Shown here piece after piece: positions 1 through 6,427 of a stretch of DNA of 6,652 nt; the stretch's first letter is position 1; each line of letters begins with the position of its first letter. The DNA is taken from positions 1 to 6,652 of the forward strand of contig JAAZAQ010000137.1 in assembly GCA_012514225.1 (NCBI GenBank), given 5' to 3'. Under the pieces are notes generated by a model that was given only the letters and a program-made list of their open reading frames with translations, did no database searches and had not been told where the DNA came from. Position numbers and translations under genes: made by a program. The stretch is from Clostridiales bacterium. GTDB taxonomy: Bacteria; Bacillota; Clostridia; Christensenellales; Aristaeellaceae.

Positions 1-2117
1 ACAACATGGTGGACGCGCTGACCGCGGCCACCATCACCTCCAACGCGGTGGTCGCGGGCGTCAATGAAATCGCCAAGCAGGTGAACGGATACCTGAACCC
101 GGACGCCGGGAACGGCGGGCTTCCGGCTGCGGAGGGCACCTCCTACGCCGGTGAGGCGGAAGGATTCAAGGGGCCGGTCGCCGTGGTCGTGACGGTCAAG
201 GACGACGGGACTATCTCCGCGCTGAAGGTTGGCGACGACCGCTTCCATGAGACGGACGGCCTGGGCACCCTGGCGCTGGAGCCGGAATTCGCGGCCTCCT
301 TCGTGGGCAAGGCGCTCCCGGTGGCGCTCTCCGACATCGACGCGCTCGCCGGCGCGACGGTCACCACCCAGGCGGTGGTGGACGCCGTCAACAAGGCGTA
401 TGTAGACAAGAACATCGTAATCATCGGCCCCGCGCTTCCGGAAGGTACGTCTTACACCGGCGAGGCGGAAGGCTTCAAGGGCCCGGTCGCCGTGGTAGTG
501 ACGGTCAAGGACGACGGGACGGTGACCGCATTGAAAGTCGGCGACGACCGCTTCCACGAGACGGACGGCATCGGCACCCTGGTGCTGGAGCCGGAATTCA
601 CGGCCTCCTTCGTGGGCAAGACGCTCCCGGTGACGCTCTCCGACATCGACGCGATTGCCGGCTCGACAGTCACCACCCAGGCGGTGGTGGACGCCGTCAA
701 CAAGGCCTATGAAGACAAGATCGTCGTTTCCACCGGCCCCGCGCTGCCGGAAGGCACCCCCTATGCCGGCGAGGCGGAAGGCTTCAAGGGCCCGGTCGCC
801 GTGGTGGTGACGGTCAAGGACGACGGGACGGTGACCGCGCTGAAAGTCGGCGACGACCGCTTCCACGAGACGGACGGCATCGGCACCCTCGTGCTGGAGC
901 CGGATTTCGCGGCGTCCTTCGTGGGCAAGACGCTCCCGGTGACGCTGGACGACATCGACGCGGTCGCCGGCTCGACAGTCACCACCCAGGCGGTGGTGGA
1001 CGCCGTCAACAAGGCGTATGAAGATAAAAACGCGGTCGGGGCGGCGCAGCCGGCCCAGACCTCCGCGCCGACGGCACAGCCGACAGCCGCCGTGACGGAA
1101 GCGCCGGTCGAAATCCCCGCGGACGCCGTCACAGCCCGGATGGAAGGATTTGCAGGTCCGGTCGCGGTCACGGTCGCCTTCGACGGGGAAGGGCACATCA
1201 CCTTCCTGAAGGTCGGGGACGCCGACTTCAAGGAAACGGACGGCCTTGGAACCGAGGCGCTGAAACCCGCCTTCACCGGACAGTTCATCGGCAAACTGCC
1301 CCCCCTGAACCTCCGGGCGGCGGACGAGAACGCGGCCGACACGAACGTGGACGGAGTATCGGGGGCGACCGTCACCAGCCGCGCCGTCGTCGACGCGGTC
1401 AACGAAGCGCACGCCCAGGTGTTCCCGCAGCCGGCGGCGACCGAAGCGCCGGTGCTGACCGGCACGACCGTCACCGTCACAAAGGATGGCTTCATGGGGC
1501 CGGTCACGGTGCTGACCACCTTCAACGCGGACGGCACCGTGCAGTCCGTCGCAATCAACCCGATGGAGTTTTTCGAGACGCCGGGCTACGGCCAACTGGC
1601 GCTTGAAGGCGCTTACACCGAGCAGTTTGCAGGCAAGCAGCCGCCCCTCGCGCTGGCGGAAAAAGGAGCGGCCCTCAGCGAAAGCACCGTTCCCAACCTG
1701 ACAGGGCCGGACGCCGTCACCAGCGCGACAAGGACCGCGCAGGCCGTCGTGGACGCCGTAAACGAAGCCTACGCCGTGTTCCAGAGCGTGCCTCAGGAAT
1801 ACACCGTGACCAAGCAGGGCTTTATGGGGCCCGTCGAAGTCAGGGTGACCTTCGGCGAGGACGGCACGGTCAACGATGTCAAAATCGGCGGGGAAGGCTT
1901 CGCCGAAACGCCCGGATACGGCGCCGCCGCAATGGAAGAAGCGTTTTCCGCCCGTTTTGCGGGCAAACGCCCGCCCCTGAAAATCAGGGAAGCGAACGAG
2001 GCGCCCGGCGAGCACCTGGTTGACAACATCCTAAACCCGGACACAGTCACCAGCGCCACCGCGACCATGCAAGCCATCCTCGACGCCATCAACGAAGCAT
2101 ACGCTTCCCGGCCCTGA
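1..2117 (+). CDS. Multi-domain FMN-binding (RnfG/NqrC-like) protein, 5'-truncated by window edge
   Basis: Likely an extracytoplasmic flavoprotein carrying a chain of covalently bound FMNs, perhaps standing in for RnfG. The frame is open to the left edge (AAC precedes the ATG at 6). That ATG falls inside a domain, so the real start, signal peptide or anchor is upstream. Numbering from the ATG at 6 gives 703 residues: the tail of one FMN-binding domain (about 1-30), then six full domains at about 43-135, 146-238, 249-341, 376-471, 488-592 and 599-703. Each full domain has a GFxGPV strand, an ETDGLG or ETPGYG loop, and a C-terminal D-x-x-x-x-(A/S)-T flavinylation-type motif followed by an AVVDAVN-like helix. 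Predicted FMN-acceptor Thr are 9, 118, 221, 324, 455, 575 and 685. A Pro/Ala/Thr-rich linker spans about 342-375 and a shorter one 472-484. I see no Cys or Trp, so iron-sulfur or haem binding is unlikely. It lies 27 nt before rnfC, presumably in the same operon. The domain family is clear; the role as RnfG substitute is inference. Confidence 0.9.
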   Translation, partial: NMVDALTAATITSNAVVAGVNEIAKQVNGYLNPDAGNGGLPAAEGTSYAGEAEGFKGPVAVVVTVKDDGTISALKVGDDRFHETDGLGTLALEPEFAASFVGKALPVALSDIDALAGATVTTQAVVDAVNKAYVDKNIVIIGPALPEGTSYTGEAEGFKGPVAVVVTVKDDGTVTALKVGDDRFHETDGIGTLVLEPEFTASFVGKTLPVTLSDIDAIAGSTVTTQAVVDAVNKAYEDKIVVSTGPALPEGTPYAGEAEGFKGPVAVVVTVKDDGTVTALKVGDDRFHETDGIGTLVLEPDFAASFVGKTLPVTLDDIDAVAGSTVTTQAVVDAVNKAYEDKNAVGAAQPAQTSAPTAQPTAAVTEAPVEIPADAVTARMEGFAGPVAVTVAFDGEGHITFLKVGDADFKETDGLGTEALKPAFTGQFIGKLPPLNLRAADENAADTNVDGVSGATVTSRAVVDAVNEAHAQVFPQPAATEAPVLTGTTVTVTKDGFMGPVTVLTTFNADGTVQSVAINPMEFFETPGYGQLALEGAYTEQFAGKQPPLALAEKGAALSESTVPNLTGPDAVTSATRTAQAVVDAVNEAYAVFQSVPQEYTVTKQGFMGPVEVRVTFGEDGTVNDVKIGGEGFAETPGYGAAAMEEAFSARFAGKRPPLKIREANEAPGEHLVDNILNPDTVTSATATMQAILDAINEAYASRP
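132..1028 (+). repeat. Three near-identical 309-bp tandem repeats, each encoding one FMN-binding domain
   Basis: Units begin at 132, 441 and 750 with an exact spacing of 309 bp (103 codons). The domain cores are 132-410, 441-719 and 750-1028. By hand alignment over 93 residues, units 1 and 2 differ at about 11 positions and units 2 and 3 at about 6. Long stretches are also identical in DNA, for example the segment around 360-396 that recurs near 669-705 and 978-1014. Linkers between units are short and similar (GPALP before units 2 and 3). This fits recent in-frame duplication. The three downstream domains of the same protein are much more diverged and not evenly spaced. Confidence 0.95.
1029..1130 (+). 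other. Pro/Ala/Thr-rich interdomain linker
   Basis: Codons for residues about 342-375 of the FMN-domain protein are rich in Ala, Pro, Thr and Gln and contain no FMN-domain motifs. The segment separates the recently amplified block of three domains from the older block of three. Such linkers are typical of secreted or surface-exposed multidomain proteins in Gram-positive bacteria, which supports an extracytoplasmic location by inference. Confidence 0.7.
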
Positions 2118-2144: not shown

Positions 2145-3461
2145 ATGAGATTGAGTTTCAAGGGCGGCATCCACCCCCTCAGGGAACGGCACGAAGGGAA
2201 GAACGCCAGCAAGGGCCAGCCGATCAGGGCCTATATCCCGCAAAGCGTCTGCATCCCCATGGACATGCACATCGGGGCGCCCAGCGCCCCCGTCGTCGCC
2301 AAGGGCGACCGGGTCAAGATGGGGCAGGTCATCGCGACGGCGGTGGGCGGCATCGGCATCCCCGTCCACGCCAGCGTTTCCGGTGAAGTCGTCGCGGTGT
2401 CGCAAAAGCAATTGCTGGGGAAAAACCCGAGCACCTGTGTTGAAATCCGCAACGACCTGCAGGACGAATGGACGGAACTGACGCCCCTTGGCGAAGCGGA
2501 GACCGCGCCGGCGGAGCGGATTATCCAGGCGGTCCGCGACGCAGGCATTTGCGGCATGGGCGGCGCCTGCTTCCCCACGCACGCGAAGATGTCCCTTCCG
2601 GAAGGAAAGTCCGTCGACACAGTCATCTTGAACGGCGCGGAATGCGAAACCTTCCTGACCTCCGACCACCGGCTGATGCTGGAAGAGCCCGGTCGCGTGG
2701 TGGACGGCCTTCGCCTGATCATGCGGGCGATGAAGGTCAGCCGCGGCTTCATCGCGGTGGAAGAGAACAAGATGGACGCCGTCAAAGCCATGCAGGAAGC
2801 CGCGCGGGGCCGCGAGGGCGTCAGCGTGGTGGTGCTGAAGACCAAATACCCGCAGGGCGGTGAAAAACAACTGATCGAGGCGGTCACCGGGCGGCAGGTG
2901 CCCTCCGGCGGCCTGCCGATGGACGCGCACGTCAACGTCTTCAACGTGGGAACCGCCGCCGCGGTCGCCGACGCCGTCATCCTGGGCAGGCCCCTGGTCA
3001 GCCGCGTGACGACGGTGACCGGCTGCGTGAAGGAGCCTGCCAACCTGCTGCTGCGCATCGGGACGCCCGTGCAGGAAGCGATCGACGCGGCGGGCGGCTG
3101 CAGCGAGGAGCCCGGCAAGGTCTTCCTGGGCGGCAGCATGACGGGCATCGCCATGCCGGATACCTCGATGCCCATGACCAAGGCCAACAACGGCATCGTC
3201 GTGATGGGCCAGAAGGAAGCCGTCGTAGCGCCGCCCACCCCCTGCATCCGCTGCGCGCGCTGCCTGGCCGCCTGCCCCATCCGGCTCAACCCCCAGCGGC
3301 TCAAGGAACTGTGCGACCAGCAGGATTACGCGAAGGCGAAGAAGGAACACGTGATGGACTGCATCGTCTGCGGCGCCTGCAGCTACGTGTGCCCCGCCAA
3401 GCTGGAGCTGAGCCCGGCGTTCAAGGAAGCCAAGGACAAGATTACCGCGAGGAGGATATAA
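2145..3461 (+). CDS. rnfC: Rnf electron transport complex subunit RnfC
   Basis: Peripheral cytoplasmic subunit of the Rnf complex and its NAD+-reducing end, related to NuoF. It has 438 residues. The N-terminus carries the family GGIHP motif (7-11), followed by a biotinyl-like sandwich domain (about 48-86). The FMN/NADH-binding part includes GMGGACFPTHAK (137-148) and NGAECETFLTSDHRLM (163-178). KYPQGGEKQL (234-243) and VPSGGLPMDAHV (252-263) follow, then an SLBB-like segment around 286-318. Two C-terminal CxxCxxCxxxCP motifs, at Cys 367/370/373/377 and Cys 406/409/412/416, should bind two [4Fe-4S] clusters. The protein ends soon after them, without the long Ala/Lys-rich extension of enterobacterial RsxC. 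The ATG at 2145 keeps the complete conserved N-terminus and has a purine-rich site (AGAAAGGCAGG, 2124-2134) upstream. Cys136 and Cys142 flank the glycine-rich loop, which looks unusual. Confidence 0.97.
   Translation: MRLSFKGGIHPLRERHEGKNASKGQPIRAYIPQSVCIPMDMHIGAPSAPVVAKGDRVKMGQVIATAVGGIGIPVHASVSGEVVAVSQKQLLGKNPSTCVEIRNDLQDEWTELTPLGEAETAPAERIIQAVRDAGICGMGGACFPTHAKMSLPEGKSVDTVILNGAECETFLTSDHRLMLEEPGRVVDGLRLIMRAMKVSRGFIAVEENKMDAVKAMQEAARGREGVSVVVLKTKYPQGGEKQLIEAVTGRQVPSGGLPMDAHVNVFNVGTAAAVADAVILGRPLVSRVTTVTGCVKEPANLLLRIGTPVQEAIDAAGGCSEEPGKVFLGGSMTGIAMPDTSMPMTKANNGIVVMGQKEAVVAPPTPCIRCARCLAACPIRLNPQRLKELCDQQDYAKAKKEHVMDCIVCGACSYVCPAKLELSPAFKEAKDKITARRI
3449..3455 (+). promoter_or_regulatory. Shine-Dalgarno site for rnfD
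   Basis: GAGGAGG sits at 3449-3455 inside the last codons of rnfC, 10 nt before the rnfD ATG at 3466. It is a near-perfect Firmicute-type ribosome binding site. It fixes the rnfD start and shows that rnfC and rnfD are read from one transcript. Confidence 0.85.
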
Positions 3462-3465
3462 AAGG

Positions 3466-4407
3466 ATGAACCTGCGCCTTTCCACAGGCCCGCACCTTCT
3501 GAGCCGGGAGAGCACCCAGACGCTCATGCTGGACGTCCTCATCGCGCTGATTCCCACGACAGCCGCGGGCATTTACCTGTTTGGCTCCAGGGCTGCCTGG
3601 GTTCTGGCTGTGGCAGTGATTTCGGCTGTGGTCTTCGAGTGGCTCTGGCAGAAGCTGACCCGGCAGCCGGTGCGGGTCAAGGACCTGTCCGCCGTGGTGA
3701 CAGGCTTGATTCTGGGGCTGAACCTGCCCGCCCAGGCGCCGTTGTGGATGCCGGTCATCGGCAGCCTGATTGCCATCGTGCTGGTCAAGCAGCTCTTCGG
3801 CGGCATCGGCCACAATTTCCTGAACCCCGCCCTTCTGGCCCGCGGGATTCTGCTGGCTTCCTGGCCGGCACATATGAGCGTGTACTATCTGCCCACGCGC
3901 GTGCTGGGCGCGACCAGCGTCGCGCCGGCCGCCGACATGACCAGCGCGGCGACCGCCCTCCTGCGCCCCAGCGGCTTCGCCCCCTATGACCTGCTGATGG
4001 GCAATATCCCCGGAACCATTGGCGAAGTCAGCAAGATCGCCATCCTGATCGGCCTGTTGTACATGCTGTTCGTCGGCACGGTCACCTGGCATGTCCCTGT
4101 GGTTTTCGCCGGCACAACGGTCCTGCTGACCTGGATTCTGGGCGGTGACCCGCTGGCCTCCCTGCTCTCCGGCGGGCTGCTCTTCGGCGCCGTCTTCATG
4201 GCGACGGACTATGTGACCAACCCGATGACCAAACGGGGACAGGTGGTGTTCGCCGCCGGGTGCGGGCTGATCGTCACCGTCATCCGGCTGTACGGCAGCT
4301 ATCCGGAGGGCGTGACCTTCGCAATCCTGCTGATGAACATCCTGACCCCGCTGATTGACCGCCTGACCGTGAGGCGGATTTATGGGATGGTGAAAAAACA
4401 TGCGTGA
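3466..4407 (+). CDS. rnfD: Rnf electron transport complex membrane subunit RnfD
   Basis: Integral membrane subunit of the Rnf complex, homologous to NqrB, which carries covalent FMN and is implicated in ion translocation. It has 313 residues, mostly hydrophobic helices. Family signatures are an N-terminal TGPHLLSRESTQTLMLDV (7-24), FGGIGHNFLNPALLAR (111-126), GNIPGTIGEVSK (179-190), FMATDYVTNP (244-253) and GSYPEGVTFAILLMN (277-291). The FMN attachment motif is DMTSAAT (157-163), with Thr163 as probable acceptor. It fits D-x-x-(S/T)-x-A-T but differs from the more usual S/T-G-A-T core. rnfD follows rnfC by 4 nt and overlaps the next gene by 8 nt, in the place where rnfG normally sits. Confidence 0.97.
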   Translation: MNLRLSTGPHLLSRESTQTLMLDVLIALIPTTAAGIYLFGSRAAWVLAVAVISAVVFEWLWQKLTRQPVRVKDLSAVVTGLILGLNLPAQAPLWMPVIGSLIAIVLVKQLFGGIGHNFLNPALLARGILLASWPAHMSVYYLPTRVLGATSVAPAADMTSAATALLRPSGFAPYDLLMGNIPGTIGEVSKIAILIGLLYMLFVGTVTWHVPVVFAGTTVLLTWILGGDPLASLLSGGLLFGAVFMATDYVTNPMTKRGQVVFAAGCGLIVTVIRLYGSYPEGVTFAILLMNILTPLIDRLTVRRIYGMVKKHA

Positions 4408-5026
4408 AAAAAAGACCTTCCGCGGCGTCTTCCTTAACGGCGTCCTCAACGAAAACCCAACCTTCCGCCTGGTGCTGGGCGTCTGCCCGACGCTGGCCTC
4501 CACCACCTCCGCCACCAACAGCATCGGTATGGGTCTGGCGGCGACCTTCGTGCTGGTCGGGAGCAACATCGTCATCAGCATGCTGCGCAACCTGATTCCG
4601 GACAAGGTGCGCATCCCCGCCTACATCGTGGTCATCTCCACCTTCGTGACCATCGTGCAGATGCTCATCCAGGCCTTCGTCCCCTCCCTGTACGAGGCGC
4701 TGGGGCTGTTCATCCCGCTGATCGTGGTCAACTGCATCATCCTGGCCCGGGCGGAAGCCTTTGCCGGGAAGAGCAGCGTCTTCCTCTCGGCGGCGGACGG
4801 CTTCGGAATGGGTCTGGGCTTCACAGGCGCGCTGCTGCTCATCGGCGCCGTGCGCGAGCTGCTGGGCAACGGCACCCTGTTTGGCAACAACATCCTCGGC
4901 GGCGGGTTTGAGCCGATGCTGCTGGCCGTGATGGCCCCGGGCGGGTTCATCCTCTTCGGGCTCATCCTGGGCATCGTCAACGCAATTACGGACCGGATTA
5001 GCGCCCGGAAAGGAGCGAAGGCCTAA
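4400..5026 (+). CDS. rnfE: Rnf electron transport complex membrane subunit RnfE
   Basis: Integral membrane subunit homologous to NqrD. It pairs with RnfA in inverted topology, and together they hold a membrane-embedded [2Fe-2S] centre on the electron path. It has 208 residues with about six membrane helices. The family motif NENPTFRLVLGVCPTLA (17-33) contains Cys29, and VVNCIILARAEAFA (109-122) contains Cys112. These are the two cysteines expected to be cluster ligands and match the positions known for NqrD. SAADGFGMGLGFT (130-142) and GAVRELLGNG (149-158) are also typical. The ATG at 4400 overlaps the end of rnfD by 8 nt with only a weak G-rich site upstream, which suggests translational coupling. 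The first residues match the usual RnfE N-terminus, so nothing is missing. Confidence 0.97.
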   Translation: MREKKTFRGVFLNGVLNENPTFRLVLGVCPTLASTTSATNSIGMGLAATFVLVGSNIVISMLRNLIPDKVRIPAYIVVISTFVTIVQMLIQAFVPSLYEALGLFIPLIVVNCIILARAEAFAGKSSVFLSAADGFGMGLGFTGALLLIGAVRELLGNGTLFGNNILGGGFEPMLLAVMAPGGFILFGLILGIVNAITDRISARKGAKA

Positions 5027-5617
5027 ATGGAATTCACACTGACGAATTTCCTGCTGTTCATGGTCAACTGCGTGCTGACCAACAACTTCATCTTTTCGCG
5101 CTATCTGGGGTGCTGCCCCTTCCTGGGCGTCTCCTCCAAGGTGGAGACCGCCGCGGGCATGGGCATCGCCGTCACCTTCGTGATGGGCCTGGCTTCCCTG
5201 TTTACCTACGCGGTGTACCATTACATCCTGGTCCCCCTGCAAATCAGCTACCTCATCACCATCTCCTTCATCCTGGTCATCGCCGCGCTGGTGCAGTTCG
5301 TGGAGATGTTCCTGAAGAAGTCCATGCCCTCGCTGTACAACGCGCTGGGCATCTACCTGCCGCTGATCACCACCAACTGCGCCGTGCTGGGCGTGACCAT
5401 CCTCAACATCGACAACAAATACAACATGCTGTGGTCCGTGCTCAACGGCGTGTTCGGCGCGCTGGGCTTCCTGCTGGCCATCGTGCTGATGGCAGGCGTC
5501 CGCGAGCGGCTGGAATCCTCCAACATCCCCAAGGCGTTCAAGGGATTCCCCATCAGCCTGGTCATCGCAGGCCTGATGTCCGTGGCCTTCCTCGGCTTTG
5601 CCGGGCTGGGCAATTAA
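5027..5617 (+). CDS. rnfA: Rnf electron transport complex membrane subunit RnfA
   Basis: Integral membrane partner of RnfE, homologous to NqrE. It has 196 residues, a normal length, with about six membrane helices. Signatures are FLLFMVNCVLTNNFIFSRYL (8-27), LGCCPFLGVS (27-36), KSMPSLYNALGIYLPLITTN (98-117) and GVRERLESSNIP (157-168). Cys30 in LGCCP aligns with RnfE Cys29, and Cys118 in TTNCAVLG aligns with RnfE Cys112; these should complete the shared [2Fe-2S] site. Cys29 and Cys15 are additional. The ATG directly follows the rnfE stop codon with no gap, and GGAAAGGAG (5007-5015) in the end of rnfE serves as ribosome binding site. Confidence 0.97.
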   Translation: MEFTLTNFLLFMVNCVLTNNFIFSRYLGCCPFLGVSSKVETAAGMGIAVTFVMGLASLFTYAVYHYILVPLQISYLITISFILVIAALVQFVEMFLKKSMPSLYNALGIYLPLITTNCAVLGVTILNIDNKYNMLWSVLNGVFGALGFLLAIVLMAGVRERLESSNIPKAFKGFPISLVIAGLMSVAFLGFAGLGN

Positions 5618-5629: not shown

Positions 5630-6427
5630 ATGGATTACGCTGCGATTCTGAAGGCCGTCGCCGCCCTGGGCGGGCTGGGGATTCTCTTTGGTCTGGTGCT
5701 GTCCTTTGCGGACAAGAAATTTGCCGTGCCGGTGGACGAGCGCTTCACCCTCGTGCGCGAAGCGGTCGCCGGCGCGAACTGCGGCGCCTGCGGGTACGCG
5801 GGCTGCGACGCCTACGCCCAGGCGGTGGTCAAGGGCGAGGCGGACATCAGCCTTTGCACGCCCGGCGGTCAAGCGACCCTGGACGCGCTGGCGGCCATCA
5901 TGCAAAAGGAATCGGCCGTCGCGGAGGTGCAGGTCGCCCGCGTGCTGTGCCAGGGCGAGACCGGCGTCGTGAAGCCGCGCTACGACTACAAGGGCCCTAA
6001 AACCTGCCATATGGCGGTTTCGCTGTCGGGCGGGCCCAACCTGTGCAACTGGAGCTGCGTCGGTCTGGGCGACTGCGTGCGGGTCTGCCGGTTTGACGCG
6101 ATGAGAATCGAAAACGGCATCGTGGTCATCGACGAGAACAAGTGCACCGCCTGCGGCATGTGCGTGCTGGAATGCCCGCGCAGCGTCCTGCGCCTGCTGC
6201 CCAAGGCCGCGCGGGTGACCGTGCGCTGCCGGAACGAGGCCAGGCCGAAGGAAGCCCGGGAAGCCTGCTCGAAAGCCTGCATCGCCTGCAAGCTGTGCGA
6301 AAAGGCCTGCGCCTACGACGCGATTCACGTGAACAACAACGTCGCCCGGATCGACCCGGCCAAGTGCACGCTGTGCGGCGAATGCGTCAAGGTGTGCCCC
6401 ATGAAGTGCATCGAGCAGCTGCCTTGA
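5630..6427 (+). CDS. rnfB: Rnf electron transport complex iron-sulfur subunit RnfB
   Basis: Membrane-anchored multi-cluster subunit that accepts electrons from reduced ferredoxin and passes them to the RnfA/E site. It has 265 residues. An N-terminal membrane helix (about 5-26) is followed by a 4Fe-4S domain with Cys 51/54/59/76 (motif CGACGYAGC). A central block then carries Cys 107, 126, 139, 143, 149 and 153, including CVGLGDCVRVC. Three ferredoxin-type CxxCxxCxxxC motifs follow, at 172/175/178/182, 217/220/223/227 and 246/249/252/256. I count 25 cysteines by hand, enough for five or possibly six [4Fe-4S] clusters, as in clostridial-type RnfB and unlike the shorter proteobacterial form. It is the last rnf gene, and its stop is 4 nt before the next ATG. 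Confidence 0.96.
   Translation: MDYAAILKAVAALGGLGILFGLVLSFADKKFAVPVDERFTLVREAVAGANCGACGYAGCDAYAQAVVKGEADISLCTPGGQATLDALAAIMQKESAVAEVQVARVLCQGETGVVKPRYDYKGPKTCHMAVSLSGGPNLCNWSCVGLGDCVRVCRFDAMRIENGIVVIDENKCTACGMCVLECPRSVLRLLPKAARVTVRCRNEARPKEAREACSKACIACKLCEKACAYDAIHVNNNVARIDPAKCTLCGECVKVCPMKCIEQLP

Follow-up and report, generated by a model that had tools for sequence, protein, structure and literature searches.

A seven-domain RnfG, predicted to carry several flavins, encoded at the head of an rnf operon in a Clostridiales bacterium

What would an Rnf complex do with a G subunit that has seven flavin mononucleotide (FMN)-binding domains? The usual view of Rnf is that of a transmembrane loop from ferredoxin to NAD+, and canonical RnfG (7zc6, 9eri) has a single FMN domain. 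The question is raised by a 6652-base contig (JAAZAQ010000137.1, here C64) of the Clostridiales bacterium assembly GCA_012514225.1, a genome bin of 401 contigs and 1.93 Mb that is 89% complete. The entire contig was analysed and is here called the window. A preliminary description of its sequence had reported an Rnf operon headed by a protein free of cysteine, with six complete FMN-binding domains and the tail of a seventh, encoded 27 nt before rnfC; all of these observations were borne out. The protein is an RnfG. Our preferred reading, in which we place about even confidence, is that it carries seven covalent FMNs outside the membrane, with domain 1 serving the Rnf pump and the other six likely drawing some electrons to outside acceptors.

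An RnfG with seven FMN domains

The reading frame (ORF, open reading frame) for this protein is already open at the left edge of the window, which contains 704 of its residues (Table 1). A search with PF04205 (FMN_bind) matched it in six stretches (E = 2.3e-83), and an additional partial match at positions 6-71 (profile positions 54-75, 25 bits) corresponds to the end of domain 1. The last 127 bases of another contig of the same genome, C255, are identical to the first 127 of the window, and this contig supplies the missing start; an exact overlap of this kind is presumably what a graph assembler leaves at a contig break. The joined protein has 852 residues, with a hydrophobic stretch that begins at residue 5 followed by seven domains (81-175, 196-284, 299-387, 402-490, 524-621, 638-741 and 748-851) separated by linkers of 6 to 33 residues. 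No cysteine is present in either the window part or the joined protein. The join is confirmed by a homologue, P0001 (858 aa; longest contig 12,554 bases), that holds the full protein on one contig. P0001 shares 99% identity with the query and begins in the same way; Pfam matches it in seven stretches, and it differs from the joined protein at 8 positions. The leftward extension thus turned the original count of at least seven domains into exactly seven.

Several lines of evidence identify the protein as RnfG. It matched TIGR01947 (rnfG) with 243.4 bits against a cut-off of 102, it has an N-terminal helix followed by an RnfG-type FMN domain, and it is encoded with rnfC, D, E, A and B. In a structure comparison, residues 1-186 (the helix and domain 1) matched RnfG over nearly its full length. 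An extracytosolic position of the domains would follow from this match, with a single predicted N-terminal helix as anchor. The seven threonines expected to be acceptors are all present, and each is predicted to carry a covalent FMN. No other RnfG was found among the ten PF04205 matches in the genome, which is incomplete as stated above. Some homologues are labelled Christensenellales, and the family also includes Clostridiales bacterium DTU024, the loci L101 and L042 being the same over their first 9000 bases. Matches of the repeats to TonB_C, PBSX_XtrA and DUF5875 (0 stretches each), and Foldseek matches ranking below the RnfG/NqrC group, were set aside as chance or background.

The six domains after domain 1 resemble the beads of the tandem FMN-domain proteins SaFMN3 and CbFMN4 (PMC10339131), matching 8p2b and 8p2a. 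Those are three- and four-FMN proteins; in the present protein the beads follow an RnfG domain within one polypeptide, encoded in an rnf operon. Covalent FMN has been shown in such tandem domains (PMC10339131), and beads-on-a-string models have been published (mSystems 2024, PMC11334425; preprint PMC10979944).

With more than one FMN_bind domain and rnfB nearby, the protein belongs to the class of multi-flavinylated RnfG described by Meheust 2021 (eLife, PMC8238504), with which it shares several FMN_bind domains on the RnfG of an RNF cluster. That study reported 2081 multi-flavinylated proteins, in which as many as 13 sites were predicted, and RNF clusters with multi-flavinylated RnfG, for which a second electron path to outside acceptors was proposed. 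Both the class and the idea of Rnf feeding outer flavins, which the preliminary description had put forward, are therefore already in print, and this locus is a well-resolved new example. The Christensenellales subset in that study has a multi-heme domain; the protein here has no Cys and does not belong to it. The passages available from the study give neither the gene order nor the flavin adenine dinucleotide (FAD) synthetase described below.

Table 1. Features of the rnf locus (coordinates in the window unless a contig is named)
Feature	Coordinates	Strand	Basis or remark
FAD synthetase, kinase-less, 230 aa	C255 (L064) 2770-3462	+	PF06574 only; directly 5' of rnfG
rnfG, multi-FMN form, residues 149-852 of 852	3..2117	+	start is ATG at C255:3491 on overlapping contig
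FMN_bind domain 1 end (RnfG domain proper)	3..83	+	PF04205 partial, RnfG match
FMN_bind domain 2	144..410	+	PF04205
FMN_bind domain 3	453..719	+	PF04205
FMN_bind domain 4	762..1028	+	PF04205
FMN_bind domain 5	1128..1421	+	PF04205
FMN_bind domain 6	1470..1781	+	PF04205
FMN_bind domain 7	1800..2111	+	PF04205
Acceptor Thr codons, seven predicted	30-32, 357-359, 666-668, 975-977, 1368-1370, 1728-1730, 2058-2060	+	published motif
Three 300-nt direct repeats, 309-nt spacing (domains 2-4)	130..1047	+	86-88% identical to first copy
rnfC	2145..3461	+	TIGR01945, 492 bits
rnfD; predicted acceptor Thr163 codon 3952-3954	3466..4407	+	profile matches
rnfE; Cys29 and Cys112	4400..5026	+	profile matches
rnfA; Cys30 and Cys118	5027..5617	+	profile matches
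rnfB; Fe-S cluster domains	5630..6427	+	profile matches; rnfB nearby marks an RNF cluster
CDF cation-efflux gene start, cut by contig end	6432..6650	+	profile match

Profile searches of the window proteins found rnfC, D, E, A and B all intact, in the order multi-FMN rnfG, rnfC, rnfD, rnfE, rnfA, rnfB and the start of a CDF gene. From rnfC through the CDF gene, neighbours overlap or lie no more than 12 nt apart. The overlap of rnfD with rnfE means that the usual place of rnfG is empty here. The predicted acceptor of RnfD is Thr in 50/50 aligned homologues, and the cysteine pairs of RnfE and RnfA are kept in 49/49 and 48/48, respectively; we take these residues to have their usual roles. A CDF cation-efflux gene also lies 3' of rnfB in all eight loci of the genus that reach that far (L044-L051).

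rnf loci in relatives

RnfC was used to query 130 genomes of the family, and 114 returned a match at E 1e-60 or better. The 121 matches split into 48 of at least 500 bits, which define the rnf type found here, and 73 of at most 432 bits. A partial RnfC match in G100, with 62% identity, falls in the low-score group by bits and in the first group by identity, and lies outside the loci read. With five further genus genomes included, 53 loci of this type were read. An FMN-domain protein is encoded upstream of rnfC in 51 of them. The G025 locus begins too close to rnfC to judge, and G029 has 6.2 kb 5' of rnfC without an FMN domain, so a leading rnfG is not a fixed rule.

Complete upstream rnfG genes (n = 26) encode 1 to 11 domains, with 3 to 11 in 20 of them and one in the remaining six (G011, G071, G083, G105, G110 and G154). 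ORFs that run into the end of a locus were left out of this count, as were G147, where the contig begins with unreadable bases and the gene falls in two frames, and G114, whose gene is divided between a cut ORF with one domain and another ORF with six. Our own profile and Pfam gave different domain numbers for G125 (9 versus 6) and G087 (4 versus 3) and agreed for the eight other proteins compared.

In the 33 loci of other types that were read, from the family and order, an FMN ORF lies in the canonical place after rnfD, between it and rnfE, in 18. Six of these are multi-domain (eight domains in G034, four in G055 and two in four loci), so the multi-domain form is found at either gene position. 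Our profile found no FMN ORF nearby in 10 of the 33, two of which are cut by contig ends. Five others (L086, L087, L088, L089 and L098) have a single ORF of 480-572 codons with an FMN_bind domain at the place of rnfD, which looks like an RnfD-RnfG fusion. A search for multi-heme RnfG returned no CxxCH motif in the listed FMN-domain ORFs of the surveyed loci.

Flavin supply beside the operon

The FAD synthetase gene directly upstream of rnfG is the only FAD_syn match in this genome, and riboflavin kinase is encoded apart from it, on a different contig. Exactly one FAD_syn match was found in 10 of 11 genus genomes, this one included, and in those ten it adjoins rnfG (read in G004 on a contig that ends within rnfG). 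The kinase was found in 8 of the 11. Of the 48 loci of this type, 23 have a FAD synthetase gene no more than 10 kb from rnfC on one contig, counting this locus via the C255 join, versus 0/73 others (Fisher p 9e-12, a guide only, as the loci are related by descent and contig ends truncate many of them).

Among the 53 loci read, the synthetase is in the cluster in 29 (across contig ends in G004 and G019), is absent from three with a complete rnfG, and could not be placed in 21. The three (G093, G125 and G145) have copies on other contigs, and the synthetase is therefore not a fixed member. Nor does it mark many-domain RnfG alone, as it is present at all six single-domain loci, lying 3' of rnfB in G011, G071, G083, G105 and G110 and upstream in G154. 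Flavin number alone thus cannot explain the link.

ApbE, the subject of a recent review (PMC12052999), was sought as the enzyme expected to attach the flavins. In this genome the search returned the first part only (profile positions 15-84 of 266), with a signal-peptide-like start, at the end of contig C334 (L067, 5137-5556, + strand). The full gene was not seen here, and near full-length matches were found in 10/10 genus relatives searched. Reading of translations named PhoH-like, HD-domain-like and Era-like genes upstream of the C334 ApbE. The order apbE, FAD synthetase, rnfG and rnfC onward is found in G021, G136 and G154, and across two contigs in G019. The preliminary description had held that the lack of a secretion signal or of ApbE would count against it; a membrane helix and this ApbE segment are present.

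In the literature titles and abstract openings searched we found no description of a link between FAD synthetase and rnf, which does not prove absence. The string 'FAD synth' is absent from the main text of PMC8238504 and PMC12052999, while PMC10339131 and PMC11633334 each contain 'FAD synthetase' and 'Rnf complex' as terms. We consider the link one of the new parts of the findings. More tentatively, apbE, the sole FAD synthetase split from its kinase, multi-FMN rnfG and rnfCDEAB may form one self-loading module, in which flavin supply, attachment and a ferredoxin-driven outer flavin chain would be made together and capacity would be tuned by gain or loss of single 309-bp units.

Possible fates of the electrons

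What the sequence itself shows is the number of domains, the helix, the seven acceptor-type threonines, the genes rnfC, D, E, A and B, and a FAD synthetase gene just 5' of rnfG. On the preferred reading, the seven-domain RnfG is likely an outlet for ferredoxin electrons. ApbE would attach FMN from FAD to each threonine. Domain 1 would swing between RnfA/E and RnfD, as in the switch described for RnfG in a 2025 review (PMC12174285), and take ferredoxin-derived electrons. The tethered beads would meet domain 1, take electrons from it, and hold them or pass them on to secreted flavoproteins or other acceptors. The preliminary description had offered either a flavin wire or an electron store; with domains of similar sequence, storage and diffusion would be favoured over a directed wire.

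A second multi-FMN protein of 652 aa, apparently secreted, is encoded across two contigs of this genome (L066, contig C267, 2-403, - strand, joined to L065, contig C95, 3397-5079, - strand). It has a signal-peptide-like start, two FMN_bind domains and four acceptor-like motifs. Two longer repeats in it have no Pfam match, carry acceptor-like motifs and are perhaps of the published FMN-bind2 type. Strong relatives are found in G001, G002, G008, G009 and G010, and we regard the protein as a candidate electron partner of the seven-domain RnfG. Just 5' of it on the same strand is a gene for a FeFe-hydrogenase-like protein (PF02906 and ferredoxin domains; L066, contig C267, 574-2085, - strand). The genus relatives G006 and G003 have 13 and 16 matches to the secreted protein. 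Four ORFs checked of these many matches (L147-L150) all combine FMN_bind and FAD_binding_2 with signal-like starts, and such proteins are candidate partners in those genomes.

Several points weigh against an outlet. Flavin, electron transfer and acceptor are all predicted. PF00890 matched this genome only in part (best 30.5 bits, 75/414 positions), and no full-length terminal reductase of this flavin type was found here. In G007, which is 99% complete and has a five-domain RnfG, the sole match to the secreted FMN protein is RnfG itself. Six of the 26 complete RnfGs at this locus type are single-domain, so some lineages can do without the beads. The structure model (pLDDT 79.2, pTM 0.39) is good for the domains and does not fix their relative placement; at this pTM, it predicts no fixed path between the flavins. 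For SaFMN3, one potential (-184 mV) has been reported, and its authors see no directionality (PMC10339131).

A serious rival, though a rather unlikely one in our judgement, is a pure electron buffer. The six beads would store up to about twelve electrons beside Rnf, smooth pulses of ferredoxin or take up traces of oxygen, and return electrons to RnfD and NAD+ with no outside acceptor. The lack of a terminal reductase match in this genome and of a partner match in G007 fits this explanation, as do the loose linkers, the near-identical copies 2-4 and the reaction of reduced SaFMN3 with oxygen (PMC10339131). However, relatives with many secreted flavin reductases exist, and this genome has the second multi-FMN protein as a possible partner.

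The extra domains could instead be passive repeats, whose number rises and falls through recombination to little effect while Rnf works via domain 1 alone. The spread of domain numbers would suit such growth, as would P0002, a protein present on two contigs (longest 114 kb) that lacks just one 103-residue unit of the joined protein and is otherwise different from it at one residue. This one-unit difference between six- and seven-domain forms is new here, and may be real variation or a repeat collapsed in assembly. However, the acceptor is kept in 49/49 extra domains (48 Thr, 1 Ser) and the ratio of non-synonymous to synonymous substitution rates (dN/dS) between domain copies is 0.17-0.27, which point to selection acting on the extra copies. 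Multi-domain RnfG is also found at the other gene position, and passive growth appears improbable.

PplA of Listeria, with which the preliminary description had compared the protein, is a lipoprotein fed by a system other than Rnf. A PplA-like extracellular electron-transfer protein lying merely beside rnf and fed by another membrane enzyme is very improbable: the likeness extends to tandem FMN_bind domains outside the membrane, and C267 and C95 show such proteins in this genome, but the protein here has a helix anchor and no lipobox Cys for a lipid anchor, its helix and domain 1 match RnfG almost over full length with TIGR01947 far above cut-off, and it is the only RnfG match found in this 89% complete genome. 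As domain 1 is Rnf's own RnfG, the closest described kind is multi-flavinylated RnfG rather than PplA.

With six spare flavins, such an RnfG would make Rnf a possible outlet for low-potential electrons, or a store of them. The clade offers a natural series for flavin number, from 1 to 11 domains within a single locus type, and the effect of flavin number could be compared directly between the six- and seven-domain proteins, which are otherwise identical but for one residue. The clade also suggests that the flavin chain and its flavin supply evolve jointly.
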